DNA of 33,419 nucleotides from an uncultured Ruminococcus sp. (GTDB lineage Bacteria; Bacillota; Clostridia; Oscillospirales; Acutalibacteraceae), in NCBI GenBank assembly GCA_902799245.1, contig CADBZY010000027.1, positions 4,200-37,618 of the forward strand, given 5' to 3'. Under the pieces are notes generated by a model, which saw only the letters and a program-made list of their open reading frames with translations, made no database searches and had not been told where the DNA came from. A program made the position numbers and the translations under genes. Numbering within the stretch: the stretch's first letter is position 1; each line of letters begins with the position of its first letter. Of this stretch, positions 2,399 through 29,259 are shown one piece after another.

Positions 2399-2447
2399 TT
2401 TTTCCACCTCGTTTGATATATATTTTGTGACATTTATTTCTTTTGTC

Positions 2448-2476
2448 ATTATATCATGCTTTGTTGCGTATTGCAA
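2448..2476 (-). promoter_or_regulatory. Sigma-A promoter of the TIR gene
   Basis: On the minus strand there is TTGCAA (2476-2471), exactly 17 bp, then a perfect TATAAT (2453-2448). Transcription would begin near 2441. This places the -35 and -10 inside the 5' end of the longest open frame and supports the downstream TTG start at 2398. No equally good promoter was found for the divergent Fic-fold gene. Confidence 0.8.
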
Positions 2477-2520
2477 GTTGATTTTTGGATGATTTTAGCC
2501 ACAAGTTAAGGAGATTATTT

Positions 2521-13956: not shown

Positions 13957-15214
13957 TTACTTCTCCTTCGGTAGCAATATCGTCACAGTTGTCCCGCCTC
14001 CGGCGGAAGATTCAATCTTTATACTGCCTCTACAGACAGTTTTCAAACGTATCCGCACGTTTCTGATGCCTACATGGGACTTGTCGTCATACACAGTCTT
14101 GGGATCGAAGCCGTGACCGTCGTCCGTTACGAGCACCTCATAGTGATTTTCGCACTCTCTTGAGGAAATCATAACCGTTCCCTGACCGTTTGCGTTTCCT
14201 CGGATGCCATGTCGCACGGCATTTTCCACAATGGGCTCCAATGTCAGCGTTGGAATCATGAAGTCGGTACAGGCGATATCGTATTCGACCCGTAGCGCGT
14301 CCTCAAATCGGATCTGCTCAAGCTCCAGATAAAGACGGGTATGCTGCAGCTCCTTTTCAAACGGAATCACACCCTCCTCGGAGAGTGAATTCACGTTGCC
14401 CCTCAGGTACTGAGCAAACTTTACTGTTGCCTGCTTTGCCGCCTGCGGGTCGCTGTCGCACAGCTCCTCGATGGCGCCAAGAGAATTGTACAGGAAATGA
14501 GGCTTAATCTGACTGAGCATAAGCTGGATGCGCTGAGCCGCCATAAGATCCCGCTCATGCTCGCGGACAAATTGCAGGTGAAGCAAGGTATAATAGAATA
14601 CGCTGCCGACGACAATGGAGATGGTCAGAAAGGCGACCGGCTGCCGCTCCATCCCAACCATGTAATCCAGAACAACAGACGCAGTAATCATCAATACAAT
14701 AAAAAGAGGGATAAGCTGCTCACATTTTCTCATATTACGGTAACGGACGATCGTCTGCCACACGAGCTGAGCAAGCAGGATCGCGCTGATAACGGAGCAT
14801 GTATGCCACATCGGTCCCCGCAGAGAAGCGTAGTCCATTTCCCTTATTTCAAAACAGAGCTTAGTAAACGGAGAACTGCAATAAAGCGCAGCGTTTATCC
14901 CCACCAGCATCCACCCGAGGCACTTTTTCCCCTTTGGCTGTGTTAAATAATAAAACAGAACCAAAAAAACAGGTCTTACAGAATAACCATAGGCGGACAA
15001 AGCGTTCTTCAGCGCCAGATTGGTGCGGGTGATGAACAAACTCGTTTTCCCATAGATTCTGAACGATCAGGCTGAGGCAGAGTACCACGATAAGGAGCAT
15101 AATCTTTCGGTGCTCGCGCTTTATATACGGGTCGATCACCACGATAAACCCCAGCCCAAGCAACAAAAGCAGCGACGGAAAGAGCATGGTGAGTGTGTCC
15201 AAATCCATTGTCAT
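13957..15214 (-). pseudogene. LytS-type sensor histidine kinase (HK1) with one frameshift
   Basis: Starts at ATG 15214. The first part codes five to six membrane helices (LLLLGLGFIVVIDPY and on). Around 15034-15040 the frame must change: GAGTTTGTTC has one T more than needed to join NLWENE to LFITRTNLALKNAL. With that base removed the chain aligns in length with HK2 from QN to GYSxRP. The C-terminal part is complete: H-box QIKPHFLYNSLGAIEEL, N-box ENAVRHGIRGN and G-box DDGHGFD. The intact second frame (13957-15039) would give a kinase lacking the first helices. It could be a real inactivation, a phase-variable site, or a sequencing error. It overlaps no neighbour and sits 2 bases before RR1. 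Confidence 0.8.
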
Positions 15215-15235: not shown

Positions 15236-16159
15236 TTATTTGATCTCATAAGTAAACACTTCTGAGATTTCTCTGTCATATCCGTCATAGAAACCTTTGG
15301 GCATACCAAGCACAATGCGGGCGCCTCTGTTATAAAGAACAAGAAGCGTACCGTTTTTCTCGTCAAAGGTAAGACCCTCGATTTCGCCTTGACGGGAGAC
15401 GTCGTCAAAGGTACGTTCCAGCGTAACAATGCAATTGGTTGCTTCATTTTCGATTTTTGTGCGGTATAGATGATCGGGTTCATTGTCGTCCGCCGTACCG
15501 TCGTCGGCAGTCAGATAAAAACAGCCGTTATGATAGGCAATTCCCTGAATCCACTGTGGTGGCATCTGCATATGGACTTTTCGGAGATAATGACCTGTAA
15601 TCAGGTCATATTGGTACAAGTAACGTCCGCTTTCTTCGCCTACCCAAGAGCACATCCAGACGGTTTTGGTATCGGGATCGACTGCAATGCCGGAGCATTC
15701 GAGCTGACCGCTGCCGGCTTCAAATGAAAACGTGCGTTTTAGTTCCAGCGTGTCTCCGTCATAAATTGCTATCTGAATGTTTTTCCCCACGCCGTCCATA
15801 AAATATTCTGCGCCGATATACAGTTCGTTTTGGTAAACGTCAATATCTGCAATGTGATTGACCTCTGTTTCATAGCCTTTAAACGGTTCCTCGTTAAATG
15901 CTATGAGATTCCAGTCCTTGTCGTATTTTGCGAGTGTTGTCGAACCGCTTACCCAATAATAATTCCCTTCGCTGCATACTCCCTGTCTCCCTTTCACCTC
16001 GACGGAGCCTGCAAGCGCATAACGGTTCGCAGGGAGCATGAGGGAGACATTTTCCTCCGGTCTGGTTGAAGTCGTATCCTTATCTTTATTATAGGAACAG
16101 CTCGACGTCACCAAAAGCACTGCAAACAGCAACATTATAAAATATATTGACTTTTTCAT
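15236..16159 (-). CDS. Beta-propeller-like lipoprotein
   Basis: A 307-residue protein with a lipoprotein signal (FAVLLVTSSCSYNK, Cys at about residue 21). The mature part has regularly spaced GIAVD, GIAYH and GLTFDEK blocks, as in six-bladed propellers of the SMP-30/SdiA-regulated/phytase-like kind. It should be anchored on the outer face of the membrane. ATG 16159 follows AAGGAGG by eight bases. A GTG at 16276, also after AGGAGG, is in frame and would add 39 residues with a transmembrane helix (LIILLVVYAALFVLGGILTGL), so a longer form is possible. It stands between RR3 and HK1 in one operon and could present a ligand to the kinase. That role is inference. Confidence 0.75.
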   Translation of the reverse strand: MKKSIYFIMLLFAVLLVTSSCSYNKDKDTTSTRPEENVSLMLPANRYALAGSVEVKGRQGVCSEGNYYWVSGSTTLAKYDKDWNLIAFNEEPFKGYETEVNHIADIDVYQNELYIGAEYFMDGVGKNIQIAIYDGDTLELKRTFSFEAGSGQLECSGIAVDPDTKTVWMCSWVGEESGRYLYQYDLITGHYLRKVHMQMPPQWIQGIAYHNGCFYLTADDGTADDNEPDHLYRTKIENEATNCIVTLERTFDDVSRQGEIEGLTFDEKNGTLLVLYNRGARIVLGMPKGFYDGYDREISEVFTYEIK

Positions 16160-16355
16160 GATAAAATCCTCCTTAATAATAGACCCGATCTTCCATCGTC
16201 GCAGGCAAAGTCCGGTCAGAATCCCTCCTAACACGAATAATGCCGCATAGACGACGAGCAAGATGATGAGTTTCACATTTCTGTCCTCCTGACATTAAAT
16301 TTTGTTGAAAAAATATTGAATAATCCCACTTCACAATACGGCATCAGAAGTGTTT

Positions 16356-16718
16356 TCAATGACAAAGCTGCATCGCATATTGAATAGCTTCGGTTAGCTT
16401 TTCAGATGTAACCGGTTTTAACAGGTAGCCGGACGCATGAATTTTGAAAGCATCTACTGCAAATTCCTTATGAGAAGACAACAATATAATCACTGTTGTG
16501 GGAAAATGCTTCTTGATGTTTTGGGCTAAAATAAGTCCGTTCATATTTCCGTCAATTCCCAACAGTGCAATATTAACAGAATGACCTCTCTCCATCCATT
16601 CCACTGCGTCCCGTACCTTTGAAAAAGTTTTGGTTTCATCCAGTTGATATTTTTTTTTGCAAATCATTTCAACTCTACGCAACATGGATATGTCGTTATC
16701 TACACAGATTAAATTCAC
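16356..16718 (-). CDS. Stand-alone receiver lacking the phospho-acceptor Asp (RR3)
   Basis: A 120-residue protein made of a receiver domain only (NLICVDNDISMLRRVEM at the start, IILLSSHKEFAVDAFKIHASGYLLKPVTSEKL at the end in two blocks). It aligns closely with the RR2 receiver, but where RR2 has LLDID this protein has LLGID, so the phosphorylated Asp is Gly. It has no output domain. It may act as a phosphorylation-independent partner or competitor of RR1/RR2. GTG 16718 is chosen because AAGGAG lies eight bases upstream; an in-frame ATG further up at 16766 lies at the expected transcription start region. It is first in the operon RR3-lipoprotein-HK1-RR1 and has a repeat-type promoter. Confidence 0.8.
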   Translation of the reverse strand: MNLICVDNDISMLRRVEMICKKKYQLDETKTFSKVRDAVEWMERGHSVNIALLGIDGNMNGLILAQNIKKHFPTTVIILLSSHKEFAVDAFKIHASGYLLKPVTSEKLTEAIQYAMQLCH

Positions 16719-16756
16719 AGTCACATCTCCTTTACGCCGTTTTTCTCCCTCTTTGC

Positions 16757-16788
16757 ATTGTAACATTCTCTGTCCAGTAAATGTCCAG
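16757..16788 (-). promoter_or_regulatory. SARP-type repeat promoter before RR3
   Basis: On the minus strand there is CTGGACA-TTTA-CTGGACA (16788-16771), then 8 bp, then TACAAT (16762-16757). The two heptamers have an 11-bp period. The spacing equals that at 18957, 19089 and 29228. Transcription would start near 16750, about 30 bases before the RR3 start. Confidence 0.85.
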
Positions 16789-16829
16789 TATAAACCGCTA
16801 TGTTCGGAATATTTTTTACGAAAACATTA

Positions 16830-17630
16830 CTATCTGTTCCACTTTTTCCATGTCATATAGCCTTCGGTTATACTTGCCCATGCATAAGAGCTCATATATT
16901 CCCCTCTGAATGCATTTACAGCATCAGAGTCTCCCTGAAAGAACAAATAAGCGTCACAGGATAATTTAGCGGGAATGATTCTCATCGTTCCGTTTTTCAA
17001 TTCAAAAATATCTTCGACACCGTATTGTTTCAAAGTATCTCTCATATCCCTGATCACGCCGTCAAATTGCTTCTGCATGGGGCGATCATACAGGCGATCC
17101 TCCCACAAGGCTGCAAATGCCTCCGCTCGCGTTACGCTGCTTCCCTGTTTGTCTATCAGGTAGGCAAGCAGTTCCTTACATCGCGCCAGCTTGAATGTGA
17201 CCAGTTTATCGTCCACGAACACGTCGAAGTTGCCAAAGGTTCGCACTACCACACGCTCTGACGCCTTGATCGGTCTGACAGAGGCGACATAGGCTATCTC
17301 CTCGGCAAGTCTTTCCTTTGTGATCGGTTTTAACAAATAACCCGACGCATGAACATTGAAAGCGTCCAGTGCATATTGTGAGTATCCTGTTAAGAAAATG
17401 ACGGCCACCTCGGGACGGAGCGCCTTTATTTTCGCAGCCAGTTCAATGCCGCTCATAGAGGGCATATCAATATCCAGCAGCGCAATCTCCGCCGAATGAT
17501 TCCCCAGCCATGCCAGCGCTTCATCGGGATAGCTGAACCCTATCGCTTCATCAATCTGCGGCAGTTCAAGACACGTAGCAACAGCATCTTCGACCAGCAA
17601 TTCTTCATCGTCCACGCATATGATTTTCAT
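16830..17630 (-). CDS. Response regulator with SARP-like output domain (RR2)
   Basis: A 266-residue protein. The receiver (1-120) is intact: DDE at 7-9, Asp in ALLDIDMPSMSG, Thr in FLTGYS and Lys in YLLKPIT. The winged-helix output domain (about 128-266) matches RR1 in order: VVRTFGNFDVFVDDKLVTF, ARCKELLAYLIDKQG, FAALWED and DAVNAFRGEYMSSYAWASITEGY. It starts 25 bases after the HK2 stop, so HK2 and RR2 are a cognate pair. The paired TGGACA repeats upstream of HK2, RR3, the ABC importer and the second YdcF gene are plausible binding sites for it, which would include positive feedback on its own operon. Confidence 0.9.
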   Translation of the reverse strand: MKIICVDDEELLVEDAVATCLELPQIDEAIGFSYPDEALAWLGNHSAEIALLDIDMPSMSGIELAAKIKALRPEVAVIFLTGYSQYALDAFNVHASGYLLKPITKERLAEEIAYVASVRPIKASERVVVRTFGNFDVFVDDKLVTFKLARCKELLAYLIDKQGSSVTRAEAFAALWEDRLYDRPMQKQFDGVIRDMRDTLKQYGVEDIFELKNGTMRIIPAKLSCDAYLFFQGDSDAVNAFRGEYMSSYAWASITEGYMTWKKWNR

Positions 17631-17655
17631 GGTTTCCCTCTTTTTTCAGATTATT

Positions 17656-18903
17656 TTATTCAATCGGAATACGAATGGTAACGGTCGTTCCGGTTCCTAT
17701 ATGACTGTCAATGGTCAGAGAACCCCCGCACATGGATTTGATCCGTTCCCGTACATTCCTGATGCCGATATGGCTGCTGCCGTCGGTTTCCGCTTCTTTC
17801 ACATCAAATCCCTGCCCGTTATCTTCTATGACAATTTCATGACATCCCATGCTTTGTCTGGTCACTACACGGACAATTCCCTCTTTACGAATCCGAACGC
17901 CATGACGGATGGCATTTTCCACCATCGGTTGAATTGTCAATGGAGGCAGAGAAAAGTCACTGTCGCTTATATCGTATTCCACCTTTATATTACGGAAACG
18001 TACCATTTCAATGTCTGTGTATATTTTGGTGTGTTCCAGTTCGGTTTGAAACGGAATCTTTCCGGTCATACCCAGAGAATCCAGATTCTGGCGTAGATAA
18101 ATGCCGAATTTTGCCGCAATATCCGCAGCCTTGTCCGGGTCTTTGCGGCACAGCACCTTAATAGTGGATATGGTATTGTAGAGGAAATGCGGCTGAATCT
18201 GTGTCATCATGATCTGAATGCGCTGCGCTTCCATCAGTGACTGTTCATGCTCCCTCACAAGATGCAGGTGCAGCCAGATATAGTAAAAAAGGCTGCTGGT
18301 CACAATTGCCATCGTGAGGAATGATATGAAAAGCTGGCGTTCAATCAACGAGTCCGTGACGACAGCCGCTGTAATGAGAAGAAAATTGAGCAAGGGAATA
18401 CATTCTTCCAGTTTCTTCTCGTGCCGGAATCTTTTTACGGAAATCACAAAAAGGTACACCAGCAGAATGCCACTGATCATATGACAGCTGAATCCCAGCG
18501 GACCTCTGATAAAGGCATTGTTCCGGTCAATGGTAAAGCATATGTTTGAAAAAAATGACGTCAGATGAATCAATGTATTCAGCCCGACCAGAAGCCACAT
18601 CCATCGTTTCCTTTCTTTATATTCAATGATATCAAAAAACATCACGATAATAATGGGGCGTATGCTGTATCCGATGATTGCTGTGACGGTTCTCGCAAAC
18701 GGCTCGGCCGTGTAGAATACCATCAGATACTCAGCAATATTCTGGGCAACTAACAGAAAAGTCAGCGACACGATAATCAGCATAGCCTTTCTTTGTCCCT
18801 TGCAAAGATAGGTATCAATCATTACGGCAAAGGCCAGACCAATTAATTGTAAAAGCAGCGCAATGGTAAGCATGAACTCTGTCAGAATAACTGTTCGAAC
18901 CAT
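17656..18903 (-). CDS. LytS-type sensor histidine kinase (HK2)
   Basis: A 415-residue protein. About six N-terminal membrane helices fill residues 1-195 (FMLTIALLLQLIGLAFAVMI, then AMLIIVSLTFLLVAQNIA and others) and form the sensor. The His_kinase domain carries the H-box QIQPHFLYNTISTIKVL, and the ATPase domain carries ENAIRHGV (N-box) and DNGQGFD (G-box). This is the PF06580 class that usually senses peptides or membrane signals and pairs with a cytoplasmic regulator, here RR2 downstream. Start ATG 18903 has only a weak GAGTG-like ribosome site. The promoter at 18957-18988 is of the repeat type and divergent from the ABC-importer promoter. Confidence 0.9.
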   Translation of the reverse strand: MVRTVILTEFMLTIALLLQLIGLAFAVMIDTYLCKGQRKAMLIIVSLTFLLVAQNIAEYLMVFYTAEPFARTVTAIIGYSIRPIIIVMFFDIIEYKERKRWMWLLVGLNTLIHLTSFFSNICFTIDRNNAFIRGPLGFSCHMISGILLVYLFVISVKRFRHEKKLEECIPLLNFLLITAAVVTDSLIERQLFISFLTMAIVTSSLFYYIWLHLHLVREHEQSLMEAQRIQIMMTQIQPHFLYNTISTIKVLCRKDPDKAADIAAKFGIYLRQNLDSLGMTGKIPFQTELEHTKIYTDIEMVRFRNIKVEYDISDSDFSLPPLTIQPMVENAIRHGVRIRKEGIVRVVTRQSMGCHEIVIEDNGQGFDVKEAETDGSSHIGIRNVRERIKSMCGGSLTIDSHIGTGTTVTIRIPIE

Positions 18904-18956
18904 AATTTCACACTCTTTTCTTAAAGTTTCGGTTTGGTGTGTCTAGTTACTTGTAA

Positions 18957-18988
18957 ATTATATCATACCTTGTCCAGCAAATGTTCAG
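18957..18988 (-). promoter_or_regulatory. SARP-type repeat promoter before HK2-RR2
   Basis: On the minus strand there is CTGAACA-TTTG-CTGGACA (18988-18971), 8 bp (AGGTATGA), then a perfect TATAAT (18962-18957). It is one heptamer base off the consensus seen at the other sites. It faces away from the ABC-importer promoter; about 100 AT-rich bases (18989-19088) separate the two boxes. Confidence 0.85.
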
Positions 18989-19088
18989 CGTCAATCTTCT
19001 TCAAGTGACAAATTTGCATTTAAAAAATTGTAGATTTTGCCTAAAAATCAACATAAAAAATGACTGAAAAAAATTTTATTTAATTATA

Positions 19089-19120
19089 CTGGACATTTAT
19101 TGGACAGCGTATGGTATAAT
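19089..19120 (+). promoter_or_regulatory. SARP-type repeat promoter before the ABC importer
   Basis: CTGGACA (19089-19095), TTTA, TTGGACA (19100-19106), GCGTATGG, then a perfect TATAAT (19115-19120). There is no -35 hexamer at 17 bp; the second heptamer ends 8 bp from the -10. Transcription would begin near 19127, only about 10 bases before the first possible ATG. Confidence 0.88.
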
Positions 19121-19136
19121 ATAAAATAAAATAAAG

Positions 19137-20681
19137 ATGGGCGTGATGATTTTGAAAAAAAGCAGATTTTATGTATTTACTGCGGCATGGCTTGTACTGG
19201 CGGTTCTTTTCCTGACCGCGTCCGTTACGGTCATGGCGGAAGGAGAAGCGACAGCCGAGCGAACGCCGGAATATGCTTCCTTTGAGGAACTGAACGGGAA
19301 AACGATCAGTATGCTGACCGGCGCGCCGTTTGAATCGCTCATCAGCAGCAAGGTACCCGACGTGAAGGAATACACCTATTATACTTCTCCCTCTGAGCTG
19401 CTGATGGCTTTGCGAACCGGCAAAACCGACGCTTTTCTGAACAATACCGCCATCGCCGATTTGTATGTCAATCAGTACGACGATGTGGCACTCTTTCCCG
19501 AACCGCTCAAAGAAGCGGTGTTTGGCTGCGGTTTTTCAAAGAATTACAAAAACCTGCCCGAATGGGAAAGGGCATTGGCGGAAATACCCGCCGATGACAT
19601 AGAAGCGGTGTGGAATAAATGGACAAGCGCTGACGAGAGCAAGAAGATCATGCCGAAGCAGACGTGGAAGGGAAAAGCCGGAAAAATACGTGTCGCCGTA
19701 GGCGACAGTATGCAGCCCGCCGCATACATCAATGCCGCCGGAGACGTGCTGGGATTTGAACCGGAAATCCTTCTGATGATTGCCAAGAAACTGGATTACA
19801 AGGTAGAGTTTATCCCAATGGAGTTTGCCGCGCTGATTGCTTCGGTGGAATCCGGCAAGGCGGATGTTTGCGCCGGTTCCCTGATTATTACCGAGGAACG
19901 TCAGAAAGTGCTGAATTTCCTGCCCTACCACGAGACGGCGTTTGTGCTGATAGTCCGCGCCGAAAAATCCTCCGGCGAGGGGTACAGCCTCTTCGGCGGC
20001 ATCACGGATAAACTGCGCGATACGCTGATTACAGACGGACGGTACAGACTGATTCTCTCCGGCATGGGAACCACCGTTCTGGTTTCGCTGCTTTCCGGCG
20101 TTCTGGGGCTGCTGGCGGCATTTGGCATGGTTTCTCTTAACCGAATGAAGCGTCGGTGGATCAGCCGGTTGATTGCCGCCTATTGCAGAGTGATAGCCGG
20201 ACTGCCCGTGGTCGTGATACTGATGCTGCTGTATTACGTCGTGTTCGCTTCTTCCGATATTTCTTCCACATTGGTGGCAGTTATCGGATTTACGATGATT
20301 TTCGCGCCAAAAGCCTATGCGCTCATCTCCAACGCCGTGGACGCCATCGACCGCGGACAGATGGAAGGGGCATTGGCGCTCGGTTACACCGAAAAGAGAG
20401 CATTCCGCAGGATTATTCTTCCGCAGGCGAGAAAAATATATTTTCCGCTGCTCAAAACGCAGTTTTCACTGTTGATCAAAGAAACCTCCGTAGTTGGCTA
20501 CATCACCGTGACAGACCTTACACGGGCGGGAGATATTATCAGGGGACATACGCTGGAAGCCTTTGTCCCGTTACTCCTGATTGCCCTGATTTACTTCTTC
20601 CTGACATGGGGTATGGCAACCGCCATAGAAGCGGGCAGCCGCACCGTTGAAAAATACATGGAAAAGAGAACAGACAAATGA
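19137..20681 (+). CDS. Amino-acid-type ABC importer, binding domain fused to permease
   Basis: A 514-residue protein. A signal or first membrane helix at about 8-32 (YVFTAAWLVLAVLFLTASVTVMA) is followed by two family-3 solute-binding lobes: a diverged first copy (about 45-165) and a second (about 178-290, KIRVAVGDSMQPAAYI, SGKADVCAGSLIITEER). A GlnP-type permease with five helices follows (about 300-510) with the EAA loop EGALALGYTEKRAFRRIILPQA that docks the ATPase. The substrate is probably a polar amino acid or small peptide; which one cannot be told. It overlaps the ATPase gene by four bases. The start is unsure: the transcript leader is very short, and ATG 19146 or TTG 19152 are alternatives. 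Confidence 0.85.
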   Translation: MGVMILKKSRFYVFTAAWLVLAVLFLTASVTVMAEGEATAERTPEYASFEELNGKTISMLTGAPFESLISSKVPDVKEYTYYTSPSELLMALRTGKTDAFLNNTAIADLYVNQYDDVALFPEPLKEAVFGCGFSKNYKNLPEWERALAEIPADDIEAVWNKWTSADESKKIMPKQTWKGKAGKIRVAVGDSMQPAAYINAAGDVLGFEPEILLMIAKKLDYKVEFIPMEFAALIASVESGKADVCAGSLIITEERQKVLNFLPYHETAFVLIVRAEKSSGEGYSLFGGITDKLRDTLITDGRYRLILSGMGTTVLVSLLSGVLGLLAAFGMVSLNRMKRRWISRLIAAYCRVIAGLPVVVILMLLYYVVFASSDISSTLVAVIGFTMIFAPKAYALISNAVDAIDRGQMEGALALGYTEKRAFRRIILPQARKIYFPLLKTQFSLLIKETSVVGYITVTDLTRAGDIIRGHTLEAFVPLLLIALIYFFLTWGMATAIEAGSRTVEKYMEKRTDK

Positions 20682-21769
20682 GCATTTTGGAAATCAAGAA
20701 CCTCAGAAAAGAATTTGAAAATGCCGTACCGCTGAAAAACGTCAGCTTTACCGTGGAAAAAGGCGATGTGATCAGCCTGATCGGACCGTCCGGCACGGGC
20801 AAATCCACCCTTATACGTTGCATCAACCGTCTGGAAACGCCTACCTCCGGCGAAATCCTGATTGACGGCGTAAACATCTGTGCCTCCGACACCGATCTTT
20901 CCGCCCTGCGCAGGAAGGTGGGCATGGTGTTTCAGTCCTTCAACCTGTTCGGACATATGACGATTCTGCAAAACATCGTGGTACCCCAGATCGACCTTCT
21001 CGGAAAAAGCGCGGAGGAAGCGCGGGAAGAAGCATTCAGGCAGCTTCGCCGCGTGGGATTGGAAGGAAAGGCGAAAAACCGCCCCGATGAGCTTTCCGGC
21101 GGTCAGAAGCAGCGAGCCGCTATCGCCCGTGCGCTGGCGATGCAGCCGGAGATCATGCTGTTTGACGAACCGACCAGCGCGCTCGACCCGACGATGGTAT
21201 CGGAAGTAAAAAACGTCATGCGTTCTCTGGCGGGAGAAGGCATGACCATGCTGATTGTCACACATGAGATGCAGCTGGCACGCGACATTTCCTCACGCAT
21301 ACTGTTTCTGTCCGACGGAGAAATTTGCGAAGAAGGAACGCCGGAGCAGATTTTTGAGCGTCCGCAAAAGGAGCAGACCAGACAGTTTGTGATGAAGGTC
21401 ACGAGCTGGCAATGGAATACTAAATCAGACGGCACGGATTTCTTTGGGATGATGGGATCGCTGGAGGATTTCTGTCGCAGCCGATTTATGAACCGCCGCC
21501 TGATGAATTCCTGTGAGATCGTATTGGAGGAACTTTATACAGGCTGTCTTAAGCCTTGCATCGACGAAAACGATGGAATGAGCGTGACGTTTAGTCTTGA
21601 AACGATAGGGGATAACGAAAGCGTAACGCTGACAGCGGATTACACCAGTATTGACTTTGACCCATTCGAGAGGGAAATGGATGATGTGTCAAAAGCCATA
21701 ATAAAATCCAAATCGCACTTGCTCCCTGCCGATGAAAAGAACCGTAGAAAATGGGAAATAATCATCTGA
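20678..21769 (+). CDS. ABC importer ATPase (GlnQ-like) with RsbW-like C-terminal extension
   Basis: A 363-residue protein. Residues 1-242 are a standard polar-amino-acid ABC ATPase: Walker A GPSGTGKST at 36-44, Q-loop in FQSFNLF, signature LSGGQ at 139-143, Walker B IMLFDEP and H-loop VTHE. That is the usual family length. The last 120 residues are extra. They contain CEIVLEELYTGCL and a strand VTLTADYTSIDFDPFERE that resemble the N-box and G-box regions of RsbW/HATPase_c_2 anti-sigma kinases, but key Asn and Gly residues are changed, so the domain is probably non-catalytic. It may be a regulatory domain linking transport to signalling. Translationally coupled (ATGA) to the permease fusion. 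Confidence 0.85.
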   Translation: MSILEIKNLRKEFENAVPLKNVSFTVEKGDVISLIGPSGTGKSTLIRCINRLETPTSGEILIDGVNICASDTDLSALRRKVGMVFQSFNLFGHMTILQNIVVPQIDLLGKSAEEAREEAFRQLRRVGLEGKAKNRPDELSGGQKQRAAIARALAMQPEIMLFDEPTSALDPTMVSEVKNVMRSLAGEGMTMLIVTHEMQLARDISSRILFLSDGEICEEGTPEQIFERPQKEQTRQFVMKVTSWQWNTKSDGTDFFGMMGSLEDFCRSRFMNRRLMNSCEIVLEELYTGCLKPCIDENDGMSVTFSLETIGDNESVTLTADYTSIDFDPFEREMDDVSKAIIKSKSHLLPADEKNRRKWEIII

Positions 21770-21882
21770 CGTGAAGAATCTTATCAATACAAAAATCTGT
21801 CAATACTTTTAAATTTTCATTTACTCTGGAGATTTTCATGATAACCATCGACAAAAGAACTTTAATAGAAAGGAGAACAACA

Positions 21883-22908
21883 ATGCAAACAAGTAAAAAG
21901 ACAATTACCGATAACAAGCAAGAATCGTTCGCCGAGGCGGTCGAGGTCGAAATCGCGGAGGAAGCGAAGATGTCCGAACCTGCTCATGTTGAAACCGAGA
22001 AAGCAACTGAACCTGCTGATGCTGCCAAACCAAGAAAAAAAGCAGGAAAGATCCGCAGGATCATCGGCGATAGTCTCATCGGAATCACCGTTGCTTTTAC
22101 TGTGTATCTCTGTGCCGGAATGCTCTATCGCATTCACACCGTTGCCAATCCGTTTTTTTATTGGAAGGTTTTCTGGAATGAAATGGTTATTTTCGGCATT
22201 TTAACTCTGCTGACAGTTGACCTGCGAACCGGTTTTCTCACCAAGTTGCGTGCGATTCCCTTCAAAGTAATCGGTTGGTGTGCGCGAATCGCCGCCTGTG
22301 TGGTAGCTGGAGCCGTTCTCGCTGTTGCAGGCAGCGTCATCGGCAAGGGGATGATCCGCACCGCTTCTTCCGCAGATTATGTTATTGCTCTGGGAATGGC
22401 GCTGGAAAACGGAAAGCCCACACAAGATCTCCTTTACAGGGTAAAGACAGCGGAAGACTACGCTGCGAAACACCCTGAAGTGACACTGATTGTGACCGGA
22501 GGCAATCAGAGCGAAACTTCACTGTCAGAAGCGGAGGTGATGAAACAGCTGCTGATTAGCGACGGCATAGACGAAAGCCGCATTATCACGGAGGATCAGG
22601 CGCAAAGTACGCAGCAGAATTTTGAAAACGTGGCAAAAATGATTGACCCGACCAAGCCGGTTGTCATAGTCACCAACAATTATCATATGGACAGAGCGGT
22701 CAAAATCGCACAAAAAGCGGGATTTACCACTGTAGAACGTCTTCCTGCTCTCTCAGATCCTGTTTTTTACGGGGTCAATATCATGTGGGAAGTAATGAAT
22801 GACCTGGACTCTGCCATTAATTGGAACAAGAAAAAGCCTTATGGTCTCCCCTCCAACCGGAATGGTTTAGTCTCAACGTCCGACCAGACTCCGGAAATAA
22901 AGAGGTAA
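21883..22908 (+). CDS. YdcF/SanA-family (DUF218) membrane protein
   Basis: A 341-residue protein starting at ATG 21883, seven bases after AAAGGAG; an ATG at 21838 lacks such a site. The first 60 residues are acidic and disordered. Three membrane helices follow (about 65-160), then a DUF218 domain (about 170-310) with YVIALGMALENGKPT, VTGGNQS, SEAEVM, TQQNFEN and VTNNYHMDRA. Family members (SanA, ElyC, YdcF) act in envelope barrier or lipid-carrier metabolism; the exact reaction is not established. It follows the ABC importer by 113 bases with no terminator seen, so it may be in the same transcript. A second family member stands at 27675-29195. Confidence 0.85.
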   Translation: MQTSKKTITDNKQESFAEAVEVEIAEEAKMSEPAHVETEKATEPADAAKPRKKAGKIRRIIGDSLIGITVAFTVYLCAGMLYRIHTVANPFFYWKVFWNEMVIFGILTLLTVDLRTGFLTKLRAIPFKVIGWCARIAACVVAGAVLAVAGSVIGKGMIRTASSADYVIALGMALENGKPTQDLLYRVKTAEDYAAKHPEVTLIVTGGNQSETSLSEAEVMKQLLISDGIDESRIITEDQAQSTQQNFENVAKMIDPTKPVVIVTNNYHMDRAVKIAQKAGFTTVERLPALSDPVFYGVNIMWEVMNDLDSAINWNKKKPYGLPSNRNGLVSTSDQTPEIKR

Positions 22909-23005
22909 TACGCATATTTATACGCGAAAAGAGATAATGAACAAAGGCAAAAAAATTCAATCTTTGTGAAATACTGTTTTCACTTAAAATAGGAGGTATA
23001 TATTA

Positions 23006-24997
23006 ATGAAGCATCTAAAAACAAAAATCGGATTAGTATGTGTAATCGCTTTTTTGACCACGGTAGCATTCATTGTTCCCGACAGAATTCTGGCTGTCAA
23101 GGCGGAGAATGCGAGATTTAAAATGATGATTTCTACAAATGCCACACATCCGGAGGAACCCGCAAATGCGGACACAGTGTATTTTTACGGTGACTCGGAT
23201 GACTATTTTGATAGCAAAAGCTACACCTACTATCTGCATGTTTACAGTGAAAACTTAATTGCATGGACCACGGTAAAGATAACCGGGATAAACTATGACG
23301 GCATTACCGAAGAACCGGCGTCGGGCTTCTGCGACTTTGCCTGTGATTCCGATTCTAATAGTTTTTCTATCATGCCGCACAGCTACTCAAGCGGAGGCAT
23401 GGCGAATATATGGTTTAATGCTTATGACGGGAATAATGCCCTGATCGGCAATTACAATCTCACCATCAAAGTTCATACGCGAAAGGTCACTAAAAAGATA
23501 TACCTCTACAACTGGCTGGTTCCGGTCAACAAAACATACGGCGGTAAGGATGGATATTCCGTTCAGACGCCACGTATCTTTGAAAGGCTTGAAAAAGAGC
23601 CGGAACATATGGAACCGGATTTTACTGGCGTAAAATGGCAACATGATTCCGATGAGATTACTACTCTGGACTGTCAGGAAGGGAATTTGACCACGAAACC
23701 GAGTTTTAAATTCACTTCCAATGAGCTTGGCGTAGACCATGTGACTTCGTGGAGAAGGATCGGCATGGACGGAAATATAGTTGCCAGTCCTGACAGCAGT
23801 GCCGGTAAATGCGAAATTATAGTCGCCGAGATCACTCCGACAAAGGAGGGTACGATAGATACTTCCCAAAATCTGCAAACCATTTGCTTTGTCGGCAACA
23901 GCGTGGATTCCCCCGCCGTTATTACTCCGTCAGGAGAAGGACTGACCTATAAATGGGGCATTTATGACAGTTCGGAATCCGGTGATGACGTTTACACCAC
24001 CAGCCAATCAAACGATTATATCAGATTAAACAGCGATTTCACCATCACCGGACTCAAAGAAACGCCGTCCGGCAGTCCCGTAACAGTGTGGGCAGAGATT
24101 ATTGAGCCGCAGGATGGCAATTACTGGAATTATCCTGACAAGATACGCTGCACATGGGATGTTGAGGTTGTCAAAATTCCTGTCACGGTCAGTGCGGGAA
24201 TTATCAGATACACGGGACGCAAGATGCAGAACAGCCTTGCCGTTGACATTGCCGACTCTGCCACCTGCAAAGACAATAAAGGCAACACGGTGACGGATTT
24301 GGATTTGAGTGACAAGCTGGATTCCGCCGTTTGGACTCCGTCAAAAGGAAAAGCGGCTTTTGACGATGGCAAACTAACGCCAAAGTCGGTCGGAAATGAA
24401 AAGCTGACCGCGCCCGTTTCTGTGAGCAGCGACAAGTATTCCGTAGCCGGCGGAAAAGCGACGCTCAATGCGGATATTTATGGCTATCAGTTTACCGGAA
24501 AAACCGAGCTTTCATGGATAAAGGGCAGCAAAAAAGACCTCGATTACACCATAGAGCTTGCGTCTCCCGCATCCGCCTCCGTTGCTACCGGTTCATCTTT
24601 TAAGGACAACAGTGCAATATTTGATGAGCTTGTGCGGGTAGAAATCATGGACAAAGACGAAAAAAAGCTGATTTGCACTCTTACCGACAATGGGGAAAAG
24701 GAAGGCGTTGATTATGATCTTACCTCCGGTTCGGTCAAAATCAATCTGAAGAGCACTTACCTTGAAACGCTTGACAGCGGCACCTATAAGATCATCGGCT
24801 ACTTCAAGCCTGCCGCCGAAGGAGGAAATGAAGTGGACACATTGAATGTTGCTGCATTTACGGTCAATTCTGATCCTGCCCCTTCTCCGGGAACAGGCGA
24901 GAGCCAAGTGATGATCGTCCTGTGTCTGGTATTCATTGCGATTTCCGGCGCATATATAGCTTCGCTCATGATAAAGAGAAGAATGGAAAAAGCTTAA
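23006..24997 (+). CDS. Large surface protein with Ig-like repeats and SPGTG anchor
   Basis: A 663-residue protein. The signal peptide is KIGLVCVIAFLTTVAFIVPD. The mature chain is beta-rich with several Ig-like blocks; CTWDVEVVKIPVTVSAGII is one block boundary. The last block (about 500-625) matches the C-terminal block of the truncated surface protein at 6831 (YDLTSGSVKINLKSTYLETL). The end is SPGTGESQ, a hydrophobic helix and KRRMEKA, a sorting-signal-like anchor of variant LPxTG type. AGGAGG stands ten bases before ATG 23006. It is followed by a strong terminator. Ligand unknown; adhesion or sensing at the surface is likely from the type of protein. Confidence 0.85.
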   Translation: MKHLKTKIGLVCVIAFLTTVAFIVPDRILAVKAENARFKMMISTNATHPEEPANADTVYFYGDSDDYFDSKSYTYYLHVYSENLIAWTTVKITGINYDGITEEPASGFCDFACDSDSNSFSIMPHSYSSGGMANIWFNAYDGNNALIGNYNLTIKVHTRKVTKKIYLYNWLVPVNKTYGGKDGYSVQTPRIFERLEKEPEHMEPDFTGVKWQHDSDEITTLDCQEGNLTTKPSFKFTSNELGVDHVTSWRRIGMDGNIVASPDSSAGKCEIIVAEITPTKEGTIDTSQNLQTICFVGNSVDSPAVITPSGEGLTYKWGIYDSSESGDDVYTTSQSNDYIRLNSDFTITGLKETPSGSPVTVWAEIIEPQDGNYWNYPDKIRCTWDVEVVKIPVTVSAGIIRYTGRKMQNSLAVDIADSATCKDNKGNTVTDLDLSDKLDSAVWTPSKGKAAFDDGKLTPKSVGNEKLTAPVSVSSDKYSVAGGKATLNADIYGYQFTGKTELSWIKGSKKDLDYTIELASPASASVATGSSFKDNSAIFDELVRVEIMDKDEKKLICTLTDNGEKEGVDYDLTSGSVKINLKSTYLETLDSGTYKIIGYFKPAAEGGNEVDTLNVAAFTVNSDPAPSPGTGESQVMIVLCLVFIAISGAYIASLMIKRRMEKA

Positions 24998-25061
24998 CAT
25001 TATGTGATTGATTACCGCGAATGTGATATGAAAAAGGCCTGACAAGTCAGACAATACAGAA

Positions 25062-25115
25062 CCACGTCCGAAGCACAGCCATCGGTTGGCGTTTCGGACG
25101 TGGGTTGTTTTTTTT
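25062..25115 (+). terminator. Strong intrinsic terminator
   Basis: CCACGTCCGAA (25062-25072) pairs perfectly with TTCGGACGTGG (25093-25103), then about nine Ts. It closes the plus-strand block that begins at the ABC importer. Read on the minus strand the tail is poor, so it mainly works in the plus direction. Bases 25116-25184 hold nothing I recognise. Confidence 0.92.
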
Positions 25116-25184
25116 CATTCTGACTTATACGGACATCATTAAATCCCTGATTTCGGATATTACCTATTAGTATGGCAGCATTGT

Positions 25185-25837
25185 TTATGCGTTGCGGTCG
25201 ATTACCACGAGAGTATTCGCAATATTACTGAACCGTCTCCCAAATCCCTCGGCACTTTCCATCGTGTAGTATGCTCTGATGACGCGGCAGCCATCGGCTG
25301 CGGGGATGATATACGCCGTCTGCAACCTGTCAGGCGTTTTGTTGTCTTTGCCGCTGGACGCATCGATTCGTATGCAGTCTCCCGCACGGTCAAGCGTGAA
25401 CGATTCCTTTATGATATCATAATCTTTTGAAAGTGCCTTGCTTATAGACGCTGCGACAGTGTCGGACCCTCCGCGCTGTATGTGACATCAAGATAGATCT
25501 CGGGCTTTTCGGGATCGTCATAGACCGAAACAAAGCGTTCGCGATCCGATTCACTGTATCGTTTGAGCGATTCGTAGTCGTAGTCCATTTCGATTCCTAT
25601 GGAATCGTTTATGATATGCTCGTATCTGACTGTTTCCTCCATACCTTCGATCATGATAACGTCCTCAAAGCGCTCGCCGTCCTGCCTTCCCGTTCCAATC
25701 TGAGTTGCAGCGGATTCGGCAGGCTCGGATGACTCTGCGGCGTTATTCTGCCCTCCGCAGCCGCAGAGTTGCGTTAACAGAAGGAACGCCATTGTGAGAG
25801 TTGCGATTGTCGTGTAAATCGTTTTTTTTTTCATCAT
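25185..25837 (-). pseudogene. Lipoprotein gene with a frameshift
   Basis: Starts at ATG 25837. The signal is MMKKKTIYTTIATLTMAFLL with a lipobox ending at the Cys of LCGCGG. The first frame reads to TYSAEGPTLSQRL and stops at 25442. Shifting by one base within the G-run near 25466-25475 (GAGGG) gives a continuing frame, SDTVAASISKALSKDYDIIK...NTLVVIDRNA, that ends at TAA 25185. The joined product of about 217 residues looks like one domain of alternating strands and helices, such as PsbP/Mog1-like lipoproteins, but I do not assign a family. One G lost from the run explains it; sequencing error is possible. It is last in the sigma-factor operon. Confidence 0.7.
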
Positions 25838-25881
25838 TTTCAGACTCTTTTAAATAACAATTTTTGATATGGTAATTATCG

Positions 25882-26397
25882 TCAAACGATTCCGTTCAGC
25901 CCGAATATTCTCAGCTCTGGCTCTGCGACCTGCTCTATTCCGTTATAATTAACGTCCCTGATCCAGACTTCTCCGCTGCCGAGGAATACCCCTTCGCCAT
26001 TTTTTCCCAGATCGACACAGGTTTCATTTTCCATAGCGGTGCGGTCGCTTTCGCTGATATGCTTCCCCTTGACATAAGAGAGAAATTCCTCTGCGTTATT
26101 GACTTTCACATCAGGATACAGTGTGATCGGGTAGTCTATAAGGGAAGAAATGGTTTCCCAGTCCTCGTCCAGATACGCCTTTTTAACCGTGGATGCAAAT
26201 TCTTCCACTTCACTGCTGGGAAGAGTGGTTATACCGGAATATGCCTTTGTGTCGATGACGGTATCGTTGACCGACTGCATATCAGAGGATTCATTGTCAG
26301 TGTCAGTATGACTCTTGTTTCCTGTGCAGCTTGTGATGGAAAGCATAATTGACAAAATTACTGCTACGCTTAAAATGCTCAATTTAAAAAATTTCAT
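25882..26397 (-). CDS. Small lipoprotein, NTF2-like region
   Basis: A 171-residue protein with a lipoprotein signal (ILSVAVILSIMLSITSCTG, Cys at about residue 24) and a Ser/Asp-rich spacer. The mature domain carries EEFASTVKKAYLDEDWETISSLIDYPITLY and VWIRDVNYNG, the pattern of small NTF2-like/DUF-type surface domains. AGGAG precedes ATG 26397. It lies 34 bases after the anti-sigma factor gene and is probably co-transcribed with it, so its production should follow the ECF sigma factor. Ligand unknown. Confidence 0.8.
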   Translation of the reverse strand: MKFFKLSILSVAVILSIMLSITSCTGNKSHTDTDNESSDMQSVNDTVIDTKAYSGITTLPSSEVEEFASTVKKAYLDEDWETISSLIDYPITLYPDVKVNNAEEFLSYVKGKHISESDRTAMENETCVDLGKNGEGVFLGSGEVWIRDVNYNGIEQVAEPELRIFGLNGIV

Positions 26398-26431
26398 TCC
26401 ATTATCTCCTATTCTTTAAAATCCGTCCGCA

Positions 26432-27103
26432 TTAATCGGCTGCACTCGTCGTGTTGCCGCCGGCGTCAGATTCCCCTGACGCTTTGATCGTCATATCGCC
26501 GTTCGCACCCTTCTTTGCGGTAATACGAATGGTGTAATCCCCTGCGGGTAATTCATAGAAATCAGCATTAATAGCGGTAAACGTTTCTTCCATCAACACT
26601 TTGGTTGTTGCATCCACATTGGCTGGCAGCACTTCAATGGTAATTGAGCTGTTATCCGTCAGATTTGTTCTGACTTCCATCTCCTGTCCTTCGGCGATTG
26701 TGATGTATCCGATACCGGATGAACCTTTTGCCGCGTTCTGTGCCGTTACGGTAATCACACCGTCATCACCATTGTCTACTATGAAATAGGAGGACGGGCG
26801 AGTGGCGGCATAAATGATGGCGCCGCAAATCACCAACACAGCGGCCACAATGCTGCACCAGACGATCAGACGTGTTCTTTTCTTGTTTTTCTTAAGGAAA
26901 TCAAGCTCGGCTTTTTCCTCCCCCTGAATCACAGGGGACATTTTTTCGTTGTTTTTCATATTCTCCACTACCTTTCTGCATTCCTCACAATCTGCGAGAT
27001 GTTGCTCAACCAATTCATTTGTCTCGCTGCCCGTCAGTTGTTCAACATAGGACGGCAGCAAATCGCGAATCACGCCGCATAAAATTTGTTTTGTTTCATT
27101 CAT
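26432..27103 (-). CDS. Membrane anti-sigma factor with zinc-finger (zf-HC2-like) domain
   Basis: A 223-residue protein. The N-terminal cytoplasmic part has the zf-HC2 pattern HLADCEEC (His-x3-Cys-x2-Cys) at about 35-42, which in this family holds the sigma factor. One membrane helix (about 80-101, LIVWCSIVAAVLVICGAIIYAA) is followed by an outer beta-rich domain of about 110 residues (VDNGDDGVITVTAQ..., LPAGDYTIRITAKKG) that would sense the envelope state. The gene overlaps the end of the ECF sigma gene by eight bases, the usual arrangement for a sigma/anti-sigma pair. Confidence 0.88.
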   Translation of the reverse strand: MNETKQILCGVIRDLLPSYVEQLTGSETNELVEQHLADCEECRKVVENMKNNEKMSPVIQGEEKAELDFLKKNKKRTRLIVWCSIVAAVLVICGAIIYAATRPSSYFIVDNGDDGVITVTAQNAAKGSSGIGYITIAEGQEMEVRTNLTDNSSITIEVLPANVDATTKVLMEETFTAINADFYELPAGDYTIRITAKKGANGDMTIKASGESDAGGNTTSAAD

Positions 27104-27575
27104 CTTGATGCATTTCCTTTCTTAATTTTTCTTTGCTGCGGTAAAATGTCACTCTTGCCCATGTTTCGTTTTTCGCATATACTTCGCCGATCTGTTGAAA
27201 GGATAATCCCCCATATATCCGCAAATACATTATTTCTCTGTAAGGCTCCGGCAATTCATGAATCTTTTTAAAGATTGTCATTTCTCCCGAAGCGTCCATC
27301 GCTTGATTTTCCGCGGAATCCACAGGAATTTCCTGTTCTGTGACGTCCTCATATTCCGGATATTTCCGTCGATAAGCAAGATAGACATTTTTTGCAATCG
27401 CATACAGCCAAGTGGATACTTTATAGCTTTCGTCATACCGATCGATGGATTTGATTGCCTGATAAAAGGTTTCCTGCGTCAATTCCTCGGCAATATCATG
27501 CGAGCGGCACAGTGACAGCAAGTAATGATAAACGGCTTTGGCATACTTTTGATAGACTTCCTCCATTGACTGCAC
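27096..27575 (-). CDS. ECF-type RNA polymerase sigma factor
   Basis: A 159-residue protein with region 2 (YAKAVYHYLLSLCRSHDIAEELTQETFYQAI, then STWLYAIAKNVYLAYRRK) and region 4 (LPEPYREIMYLRIYGGLSFQQIGEVYAKNETWARVTFYRSKEKL). Length and content are typical of ECF factors of Firmicutes. GTG 27575 is a sure start: AAGGAGGTG lies nine bases upstream. It heads an operon with its anti-sigma factor and two lipoproteins. A TGTAACAAA stretch lies about 60 bases upstream and could be an ECF -35 for autoregulation, but I could not fit a convincing -10. Confidence 0.92.
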   Translation of the reverse strand: MQSMEEVYQKYAKAVYHYLLSLCRSHDIAEELTQETFYQAIKSIDRYDESYKVSTWLYAIAKNVYLAYRRKYPEYEDVTEQEIPVDSAENQAMDASGEMTIFKKIHELPEPYREIMYLRIYGGLSFQQIGEVYAKNETWARVTFYRSKEKLRKEMHQDE

Positions 27576-27674
27576 AGGTTTTCACCTCCTTTTGTCCGTT
27601 CTATTTATAATTGATTATAAAACCCGCTTTGTTACAGCTCTGCATCAATTTTCGGCGTGAAATTTTTCTATCAA

Positions 27675-29195
27675 TCAAAGAATATTGGAGCTATGAAACA
27701 TAATCACCATGATTATCATTGCGACGGAGAGCATCGCCATTGTAATAACGTGCGTCTTCCGCTCGGAAACCAGAGTAGCGACAAATTCACGGACAAAGGC
27801 GTTGATCCAGAAATAGCGCTTGGTGAGACTGCCTATTCCGTCCATATGAAAACCTTGCCGCGCCGCAAGCATTCCCGCCCGGAACACATGATAATTGGTG
27901 GTGGAGAATGCCACCTTCGGTTCGGAATTGTCTGAGTGCGCCTTGATGATCTCCATGGAATTATTCAGATTTTCAAGCGTGTTGACCGATTTATCCTCCG
28001 GCAGAATCCGTTCATCCGGAATGCCAATGCTGAGAAGGTAGTTTCTGATCGCCTGTGCCTCCGGCATGACTTCATCGGAGCCTTGCCCGCCGGAAGGTAC
28101 GAAGGTGATTTCCTTGCCGGTTGCCTCACGTTGCATTTCAGCAAATTCCACGGCGCGGTCGGCTCGGCTTTGGAGGAGCTTAGTGAGTGTGCCGTCCTTT
28201 CTGATCTGGCAGCCGAGAATGAGGATATAATCCTTGTCAAACGTCGGGATATGGCGCGCAGCCTTCACCGCAAACACTATCGTACCCACGAGCACACATT
28301 CCAGATAGGCGATTGCTATAGAAAACGAGGCGGAAAACGCTTCCTCAATATACATGGCAGTTCCCTGCTCGTTATGAACATTAACAATCGTTGTTTGCTG
28401 CAGCATATCGCTTACAATCATCGGCAGTATCGTTCCCGCAATGACCAGAATGCCAAGCATACAGCCCAGCATATTGCGCCAGTTCCTGCCCTCCTTGCGC
28501 ATGAGTCTGATGTTGCTTACCGTGACATAAACTGACACAACAAGAATCAACGGAAGCGCAAGTCCTGCAAACAGTTCGGCAGTCCCAAGAATCGTCCTTA
28601 TCGTTTGAATCAGTCCTTGGTAGTTGAAAACGATTGATATCTGATTGAATATCAGAAATGACGTGAATATGATCAACGCAAGGTAAGTGACGTTTTTGTA
28701 CTGGTAGAAGCTATGCCTGATATTTGCTTTTAGTTCCTGAATGAAAGCATAAAGAACAACTGTCAGAAACAGTGCGGCTGCAAGAGGAATCACAAAATCG
28801 CCGTTTGATTTGCCAAAATAGGAGTTGAATGTAATATATCCTGTGGGATGCACATAAAAAACGTCCGAAAAATAATAGTTGCCACTCTTTGACACATCTA
28901 CATAAACCTTACCCGCACCTACCGCTCTGAGTTTCAAACTTAGCTTGCCGTTATATAGCTCTTTCTGCTCCACTTGCAGAATATCGCCTGGCGACACGTC
29001 AATATTTCGCTTGGACGATTCCAATATGACATTGATTGATTCGACGTCGGTCAGTGAAACAGGCACATCAGCGGTCACGGTATAGGTTTTGCCACACAGC
29101 GACAGAAACAGGAAGCTCACGATTGCCAGACACAGTCCGATGATGATAATGATTTTCTTTTTCATTTTAATAGGCTGTTCTCCTTTCAAGATCAT
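27675..29195 (-). CDS. YdcF/SanA-family (DUF218) protein with extracytoplasmic domain and six or more helices
   Basis: A 506-residue protein. A first helix (about 13-32) is followed by an outside beta domain (about 35-125, VTADVPVSLTDVESINVILE...). Four to five membrane helices come next (about 130-310). The DUF218 domain (about 320-460) has DYILILGCQIRKDGTLT, SGGQGSDEVMPEA, VNTLENL and STTNYHVFRAGM, and a last membrane helix follows. It is larger than the relative at 21883. The start is either ATG 29195 or ATG 29165; neither has an ideal ribosome site (AAAGGAG lies 14 bases before 29165). It is driven by the repeat-type promoter at 29228-29259, so it belongs to the same predicted regulon as the kinase and importer although it is 10 kb away. 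Confidence 0.82.
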   Translation of the reverse strand: MILKGEQPIKMKKKIIIIIGLCLAIVSFLFLSLCGKTYTVTADVPVSLTDVESINVILESSKRNIDVSPGDILQVEQKELYNGKLSLKLRAVGAGKVYVDVSKSGNYYFSDVFYVHPTGYITFNSYFGKSNGDFVIPLAAALFLTVVLYAFIQELKANIRHSFYQYKNVTYLALIIFTSFLIFNQISIVFNYQGLIQTIRTILGTAELFAGLALPLILVVSVYVTVSNIRLMRKEGRNWRNMLGCMLGILVIAGTILPMIVSDMLQQTTIVNVHNEQGTAMYIEEAFSASFSIAIAYLECVLVGTIVFAVKAARHIPTFDKDYILILGCQIRKDGTLTKLLQSRADRAVEFAEMQREATGKEITFVPSGGQGSDEVMPEAQAIRNYLLSIGIPDERILPEDKSVNTLENLNNSMEIIKAHSDNSEPKVAFSTTNYHVFRAGMLAARQGFHMDGIGSLTKRYFWINAFVREFVATLVSERKTHVITMAMLSVAMIIMVIMFHSSNIL

Positions 29196-29227
29196 TCGTT
29201 TTTTGCCTTTCCCTATGCTATTATTTC

Positions 29228-29259
29228 ATTATACCGGTGCTTGTCCAGTAAATGTCCAG
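29228..29259 (-). promoter_or_regulatory. SARP-type repeat promoter before the second YdcF gene
   Basis: On the minus strand there is CTGGACA-TTTA-CTGGACA (29259-29242), then AGCACCGG (8 bp), then a perfect TATAAT (29233-29228). Its heptamers and 4-bp spacer are identical to the RR3 promoter. Transcription would begin near 29221, about 26 bases before ATG 29195. Confidence 0.88.

Follow-up and report, generated by a model that had tools for sequence, protein, structure and literature searches.

Promoters controlled by AfsR and other SARP activators are characterized by 11-bp direct repeats, a −10 element placed 8 bp after the 3′ copy, a poor −35 element and an extended spacer, according to extracts of a published account (PMC10936776). 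OmpR/PhoB regulators, including PhoP, bind 7-bp direct repeats with a 4-bp spacer, and the TTTAAG-N5-TTTAAG repeats of CiaR stand at a fixed 10 bp from the −10, as described in portions of two further papers (PMC3091779, PMC4832192). Here we analyse a 33,419-nucleotide stretch of an uncultured Ruminococcus sp. (contig CADBZY010000027.1; hereafter the window), in which four sites (A–D) with paired heptamers accompany genes of two-component systems, including those of the histidine kinase HK2 and the response regulator RR2. An earlier interpretation of this DNA (hereafter the original prediction) took the sites for a local regulon of SARP type. Our results suggest, with a probability of about 0.83, that the four are part of a regulon spanning the whole genome, with ∼20 promoters recognized by response regulators of the RR2 type (i.e. 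RR2 and its close paralogues).

A pattern search of the window found all four sites where the original prediction had placed them. They share the layout YTGRACA-4-YTGRACA-8-TAYAAT, with TTTA or TTTG as the spacer and TACAAT in one of the four: site A (16,757–16,788, minus strand; CTGGACA-TTTA-CTGGACA-8-TACAAT) reads into the receiver gene RR3; site B (18,957–18,988, minus strand; CTGAACA-TTTG-CTGGACA-8-TATAAT) reads into HK2-RR2; site C (19,089–19,120, plus strand; CTGGACA-TTTA-TTGGACA-8-TATAAT) diverges from B and reads into an amino-acid-type ABC importer; and site D (29,228–29,259, minus strand; CTGGACA-TTTA-CTGGACA-8-TATAAT) reads into the second of two YdcF/DUF218 genes. The YTGRACA-pair pattern gives four matches in the window and none in 100 shuffles, a post hoc result because the pattern was derived from the same four sites, so that the fair test lies outside the window. 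The lack of a normal −35 at 17 bp is borne out: only 0–1 of six bases match at 17 or 18 bp at sites A–D, which rules out an ordinary −35 there. At 19 bp from the −10, the upstream heptamer offers TGGACA, which shares five of six bases with TTGACA (four of six for TGAACA of site B) and is, judged by its sequence, a −35-like element with an over-long spacer.

The core TGGACATTTNNTGGACA occurs in the genome holding the window (3.03 Mb, 84 contigs; G000, where G-, L- and C-numbers denote sampled genomes, loci and contigs) as 16 exact and four one-mismatch copies, while the reversed pattern gives none. The genome-wide search proposed with the original prediction thus speaks for the motif, and the sites are not local: they are spread over six contigs, and most fall into three clusters (on C27, which includes the window, on C37 and on C43), each with its own kinase–regulator pair related to HK2-RR2. 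In the fetched stretches of this genome, TAnnnT follows exactly 8 bp after 17 of 18 distinct NTGGACA pairs (TGAACA of site B is outside this count). The 8-bp gap mostly ends in TGn (T in 13 and G in 15 of 18 sites), an extended −10 that the original prediction had missed. Two candidates were set aside as regulon members, the pair at C9:85458, with no −10 at 8 bp, and a match on C20 with three mismatches.

We then compared the distribution of the motif with that of RR2 relatives. The 390 other genomes sampled from the class all lack the full motif, which has 16 copies in G000; G000 aside, no member of the close RR2 clade (11 genomes, see below) was in that sample. At a threshold of E 1e-22, 46 of 300 family genomes (G000 among them) have an RR2 relative, and this family of response regulators with SARP-like output domains is found in 29 of the 135 sampled genera of the window's taxonomic family. 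The TGGACATTT-type pair is found in 8 of 11 genomes of the close RR2 clade (E 1e-78 or better, a cut-off set after the E-values were seen) and in 1 of 289 others (Fisher 1e-12), the searches for relatives and for pairs being taken to cover the same 300 genomes, as the handles listed agree (not all were listed for the former). With any 4-bp spacer the counts are 9 of 11 and 10 of 289 (1e-10); the reversed control with any 4-bp spacer matches in 14 of 300 genomes, so single matches with odd spacers are at chance level. The TGGACATTT-type pattern is not equally common outside the close RR2 clade; equal frequency at unrelated genes without SARP-like regulators would have counted against the original prediction. 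The sole TGGACATTT exception, G008, carries at a contig end a stretch that by eye resembles a kinase fragment of the HK2 family. Within the window's genus, a relative at E 1e-10 is present in 13 of 18 genomes and exact core sites in 9 of 18. Exact sites occur in seven of the eight genomes whose relative reaches 63% identity or more, the eighth (G014) having a two-mismatch pair with a −10 at 8 bp, and in two of the other 10 (G004 and G008). A single core match outside the genus was seen in G057.

The geometry is also conserved around more distant relatives. Among 40 relatives outside the genus (28–61% identity), exact noncoding 9-mer repeats of period 11 appear at eight loci in seven genera, and every other period between 9 and 30 at three loci at most; looser settings give 13 loci for period 11 versus at most seven, and 12 versus at most five. 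A further set of 80 loci (L225–L304) comprises relatives with 51–71% identity from titled genome records, many from ruminant gut samples; several appear to be the same records as G-handle contigs (e.g. L225/L132, L226/L136, L269/L152 and L290/L156). Period-11 repeats are present in 37 of these 80 loci, and no other period between 9 and 30 in more than five. An exact pair occurs in 50 loci, each with at least one pair that has a −10 at 8 bp; if one mismatch is allowed, 64 loci have a pair. With identical sites entered once, the −10 lies exactly 8 bp away in 62 of 67 distinct NTGGACA pairs, any other offset accounting for at most 11, and the gap ends with the T and G of an extended −10 in 50 and 49 of the 67 sites, respectively. 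L241, once considered an exception, contains at L241:9985 two exact NTGGACA copies in this arrangement, followed 8 bp on by TAnnnT. A triple 11-bp repeat, TTTGTTGGACA, at L302:8835–8868 suggests a three-subunit site.

RR2 (16,830–17,630, minus strand), the predicted reader of the sites, combines a receiver with an output domain. Its receiver (residues 3–112) precedes the DNA-binding domain, unlike the N-terminal placement in SARPs. The output domain was modelled alone because full-length searches were dominated by OmpR/PhoB regulators and receivers, the latter filling the list of a second fold search. The resulting predicted fold is SARP-like (an OmpR-type winged helix of SARP type), with three helices after the wing and then the protein end. 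AfsR, by comparison, has a BTA domain of seven helices, according to the extracts of PMC10936776. RR2 gives no BTAD match in Pfam at E 0.01. It gives no LytTR match at that threshold either, despite its PF06580 kinase and LytR-like receiver; this and the SARP-like predicted fold argue against a LytTR-type two-component system. The proposed SARP-like output domains stand for RR2 by predicted fold and for RR1 by AfsR matches, but RR2 lacks a complete BTA domain and ends in a truncated BTA-like tail.

SAPR-family response regulators (COG3947) combine a receiver, a winged helix-turn-helix and a BTAD; as usually described, they have the same domain order as RR2, whose BTAD part looks much shorter. 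AfsR at afsS and other Streptomyces SARPs share with this system the repeats, the 8-bp rule, the poor −35 and the output-domain fold (predicted here). In contrast to these, RR2 has its DNA-binding domain on the C-terminal side of a receiver and no more than about three BTA-like helices; it comes from a Clostridia-type gut bacterium, and its predicted targets are envelope and signalling genes, not antibiotic clusters. EmbR of Mycobacterium tuberculosis is not known to have a receiver. It differs from RR2 also in an extra FHA domain, according to the same extracts (PMC10936776). The CiaR regulon of Streptococcus and PhoB/PhoP share with the proposed RR2 system the use of 11-bp-period direct repeats by response regulators. 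The sites combine both target descriptions, having 11-bp-period direct repeats with the 3′ copy 8 bp from the −10, as for SARPs, and 7-bp direct repeats with a 4-bp spacer, as for OmpR/PhoB regulators. Geometry alone was rejected as proof of SARP type, since PhoP and CiaR are comparable and the distance to the −10 depends on how the repeat is cut; the SARP label rests more on the predicted fold.

The strongest evidence for RR2-type readers is the joint change of heptamer and recognition helix. The predicted recognition helix of RR2 (residues 183–202, encoded at 17,025–17,084, minus strand) contains Q188, D190 and R194. D190 and R194 are present in all 60 regulators beside TTGGACA-type sites, a set without three regulators of less than 45% identity that are encoded at the same locus as a closer relative (L296 twice, L302 once). 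Among 266 columns, eight are at least 85% conserved in these 60 and changed in all three full-length regulators beside TTATACA-type sites, and five of the eight (188, 190, 193, 194 and 197) fall in helix 3. For 73 regulators with a nearby site, site divergence correlates with helix divergence given the receiver (partial r 0.54, p 0.001) and not with receiver divergence given the helix (r 0.01, p 0.41), in Mantel-type tests that correct only partly for the tree. Raw per-column mutual information was uninformative, as variable columns rank high. In AfsR, T88 and R92 contact bases, according to the extracts of PMC10936776. Through RR1–AfsR and RR1–RR2 alignments these would match RR2 residues 191 and 195, placing 190 and 194 adjacent to them on the helix.

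Outside the close clade the layout is kept with other heptamers (e.g. TTGCACT in G160, TTGTACT in G223 and TTGTAAC at two loci of one genus). All five TTGCACT pairs of G160 have TAnnAT 8 bp on, G007 has TTGCACT with one change beside its own kinase–regulator pair, and the TTGCACT pattern within one mismatch is absent from 10 of 12 genomes tested. The L304 regulator, 53% identical to RR2, has the helix RKMQNSFNVIVHCLK versus RxMQKQ[LF]DVxIRSLR in most, together with three sites of the form TTATACA-tttg-TTATACA-8-TAnAAT; a whole-genome search finds these three TTATACA sites in its genome and none in 15 others. In the genus of L304, relatives at E 1e-30 are present in 13 of 60 sampled genomes, and TTRKACA pairs in 9 of 11 clade genomes versus 1 of 49 others (reversed control, 1 of 60), the clade being again set with the E-values in view. 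Regulators with QKQFD...R stand beside TTGGACA-type pairs, some with one change (L331–L335 and L346), and TTATACA-type pairs accompany the regulators that have S188 and N190 (L304, L328 and L329; L336 is a truncated copy), so that Q188, D190 and R194 are replaced by S, N and H or Y. L337 has a third kind of helix beside TTGTACT/TTGTACA. Both main kinds are intact in G398, where C38 (S188, N190, Y194) accompanies TTATACA and C178 (Q188, D190, R194) accompanies TTGGACA; G395 is similar, with its second regulator copy broken.

The TTATACA regulators form one clade (support 100/97), and L330 of G387 is its sister (87/93), with only R194 changed (to H) among the three positions. The single pair in G387, TTGGACA-tttg-TTAGACA, looks like an intermediate of the switch; the region upstream of L330, with only a single TTAGACA, was not counted as a site. 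A gene for an AIM24-family protein lies behind a TTATACA site in L304 and in a same-strand gene row behind a TTGGACA site in G000 (C43), which suggests that this target was kept through the switch. It is about an even chance that the regulon changed its DNA code in this way, i.e. that Q188/D190/R194 reads TTGGACA and the S188/N190/H-Y194 clade reads TTATACA, that several promoters followed, that R194 changed before Q188 and D190, and that G398 keeps both systems.

The same evidence bears on other possible readers. RR1 (13,166–13,954, minus strand; a receiver with a SARP-like domain, 37–39% identical to RR2) is encoded inside the regulon, behind site A, and the best PDB sequence matches of its SARP-like domain are AfsR chains, but its helix, SAAKQRLRNLVSDLR, has other residues at 188, 190 and 194, and the motif follows the RR2 clade (genomes were classed by RR2 relatives, not by RR1 alone). 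With this different recognition helix RR1 was rejected as the predicted reader, and it appears quite unlikely to read the sites instead of RR2. It is likewise improbable that they are Pho-box-like sites of an ordinary OmpR/PhoB response regulator encoded elsewhere: PhoP with its spaced 7-bp motifs and CiaR with repeats fixed relative to the −10 offer precedents in the cited portions, yet the motif co-occurs with the SARP-like RR2 clade and its sequence varies with the helix of whichever SARP-like regulator is encoded nearby.

The sites might instead be sigma-70 promoters that work constitutively, with the −35-like TGGACA duplicated and no activator of their own. The five-base match to TTGACA at 19 bp would agree with this, but such promoters are very improbable, as they leave unexplained why a second copy is conserved 8 bp from the −10, why 390 sampled genomes of the class lack the motif, and why TTATACA and TTGCACT versions stand beside other regulators. 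Equally remote is an origin of the sites by copying of a mobile or duplicated DNA element that travels with the gene clusters. Most sites do lie in three clusters, each with its own kinase–regulator pair, and a short upstream TTATA is common to the genus, but little is common to the flanks (12 bp upstream and 26 bp downstream) apart from this TTATA and the −10, and the sites vary in strand and in target gene.

Several observations weigh against reading by RR2-type regulators or limit its reach. The full-length RR2 model ranks OmpR/PhoB response regulators first in Foldseek, and the RR2-clade output domain is closer in sequence to ArlR-type OmpR/PhoB domains than to EmbR. No exact NTGGACA pair is found in 30 of the 80 loci and none within one mismatch in 16 (many of the loci without a pair, though not all, are short contigs), and many relatives below ∼45% identity have no detectable repeat nearby. 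G004 and G008 have sites without an RR2-clade match, and G130 and G222 have RR2 relatives without an exact pair. As for the helix, raw mutual information ranks five columns outside it above Q188, the set of 60 was formed without the three regulators named above, the single TTATACA clade makes the switch one event, and a mixed TTGGACA/TTAGACA site also stands beside an intact helix at L245. The SARP-type regulon of the original prediction nevertheless gains support from the geometry, the clade co-occurrence, the predicted fold and the joint change of heptamer and helix.

In the regulon proposed here, the LytS-type kinase HK2 (17,656–18,903, minus strand; PF06580), the predicted partner of RR2, would phosphorylate RR2, and two RR2 molecules would bind side by side, one per 11-bp unit TTTRYTGGACA, with the recognition helix inserted into the heptamer's major groove. 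The two molecules together would occupy the place of the −35, 8 bp from the extended −10, and recruit RNA polymerase as AfsR does at afsS. Self-activation of the system is probable, since one of the sites (B) reads into HK2-RR2.

Behind site A lies RR3 (16,356–16,724, minus strand), a stand-alone receiver whose start is more likely the GTG at 16,724 because the listed open reading frame begins inside the −10; its receiver is 41% identical to that of RR2 and might act as a phosphate sink or competitor. The row probably continues on the same strand with a lipoprotein-like gene (15,236–16,276; no match in Pfam), the LytS-type kinase gene HK1 (13,957–15,039) and RR1. Site C precedes, on the plus strand, a fused substrate-binding/permease protein (SBP_bac_3, BPD_transp_1; 19,137–20,681) and the importer's ATPase (20,678–21,769), with which the first YdcF/DUF218 gene (21,838–22,908) may be co-transcribed; site D precedes the second YdcF/DUF218 gene (27,675–29,195, minus strand). 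Elsewhere in the window, a TIR and DUF6273 protein (308–2,476, minus strand) adjoins a Fic-domain protein (2,485–4,971, plus strand), after whose gene transposase genes follow (5,278–6,330; IS66 at 8,209–9,678).

The products of the first genes behind sites include six STAS proteins, two SpoIIE phosphatases, ABC transporters, receivers, an AIM24-family protein and large surface proteins, in a Pfam scan covering genes of 54 of 83 sites (one site has no gene; 11 reading frames bore a regulator or kinase tag and were in part dropped, L240:8998–9882 being among those scanned; the remaining genes outside the scan were short, doubtful, near-duplicate or very long). By these matches the targets would be mainly envelope and signalling genes. 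A full site at C36:9286–9317 of G000 has no clear gene within 350 bp and could drive a small RNA or an unlisted peptide. An RR2 paralogue at C43:557–1255 (L068:560–1345) has an in-frame stop near its end, as a pseudogene or an assembly error. Directly after RR2 paralogues in C37 and C43, an 89-residue reading frame (L067:7126–7395, plus strand, and L068:125–394, minus strand) has a double-glycine-type leader (SPEQLEILNGG in the C37 copy) and could be an exported peptide of the regulon; NCBIfam gives a weak bacteriocin match (0.03) for the C37 copy and none for the C43 copy. Genes resembling NHLM/C39-type peptide exporters by eye lie near RR2 relatives in L158, L182 and L141, and directly behind TGGACA-type sites or near RR2 relatives in L204 (G008:C67) and at L230:8917–9396, the last without a Pfam match.

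Searches of the open-access part of PubMed Central turned up neither an account of this motif nor known targets of such regulators. Our results propose a DNA target, a regulon and a recognition code for response regulators with SARP-like output domains, and would carry the promoter geometry of SARPs over to two-component systems of bacteria other than actinomycetes. The old and the new system side by side may offer a view of how a regulator and several promoters change specificity without loss of the regulon; if the switch took place as outlined, living members of the family would document how a regulon came to use a different DNA code.
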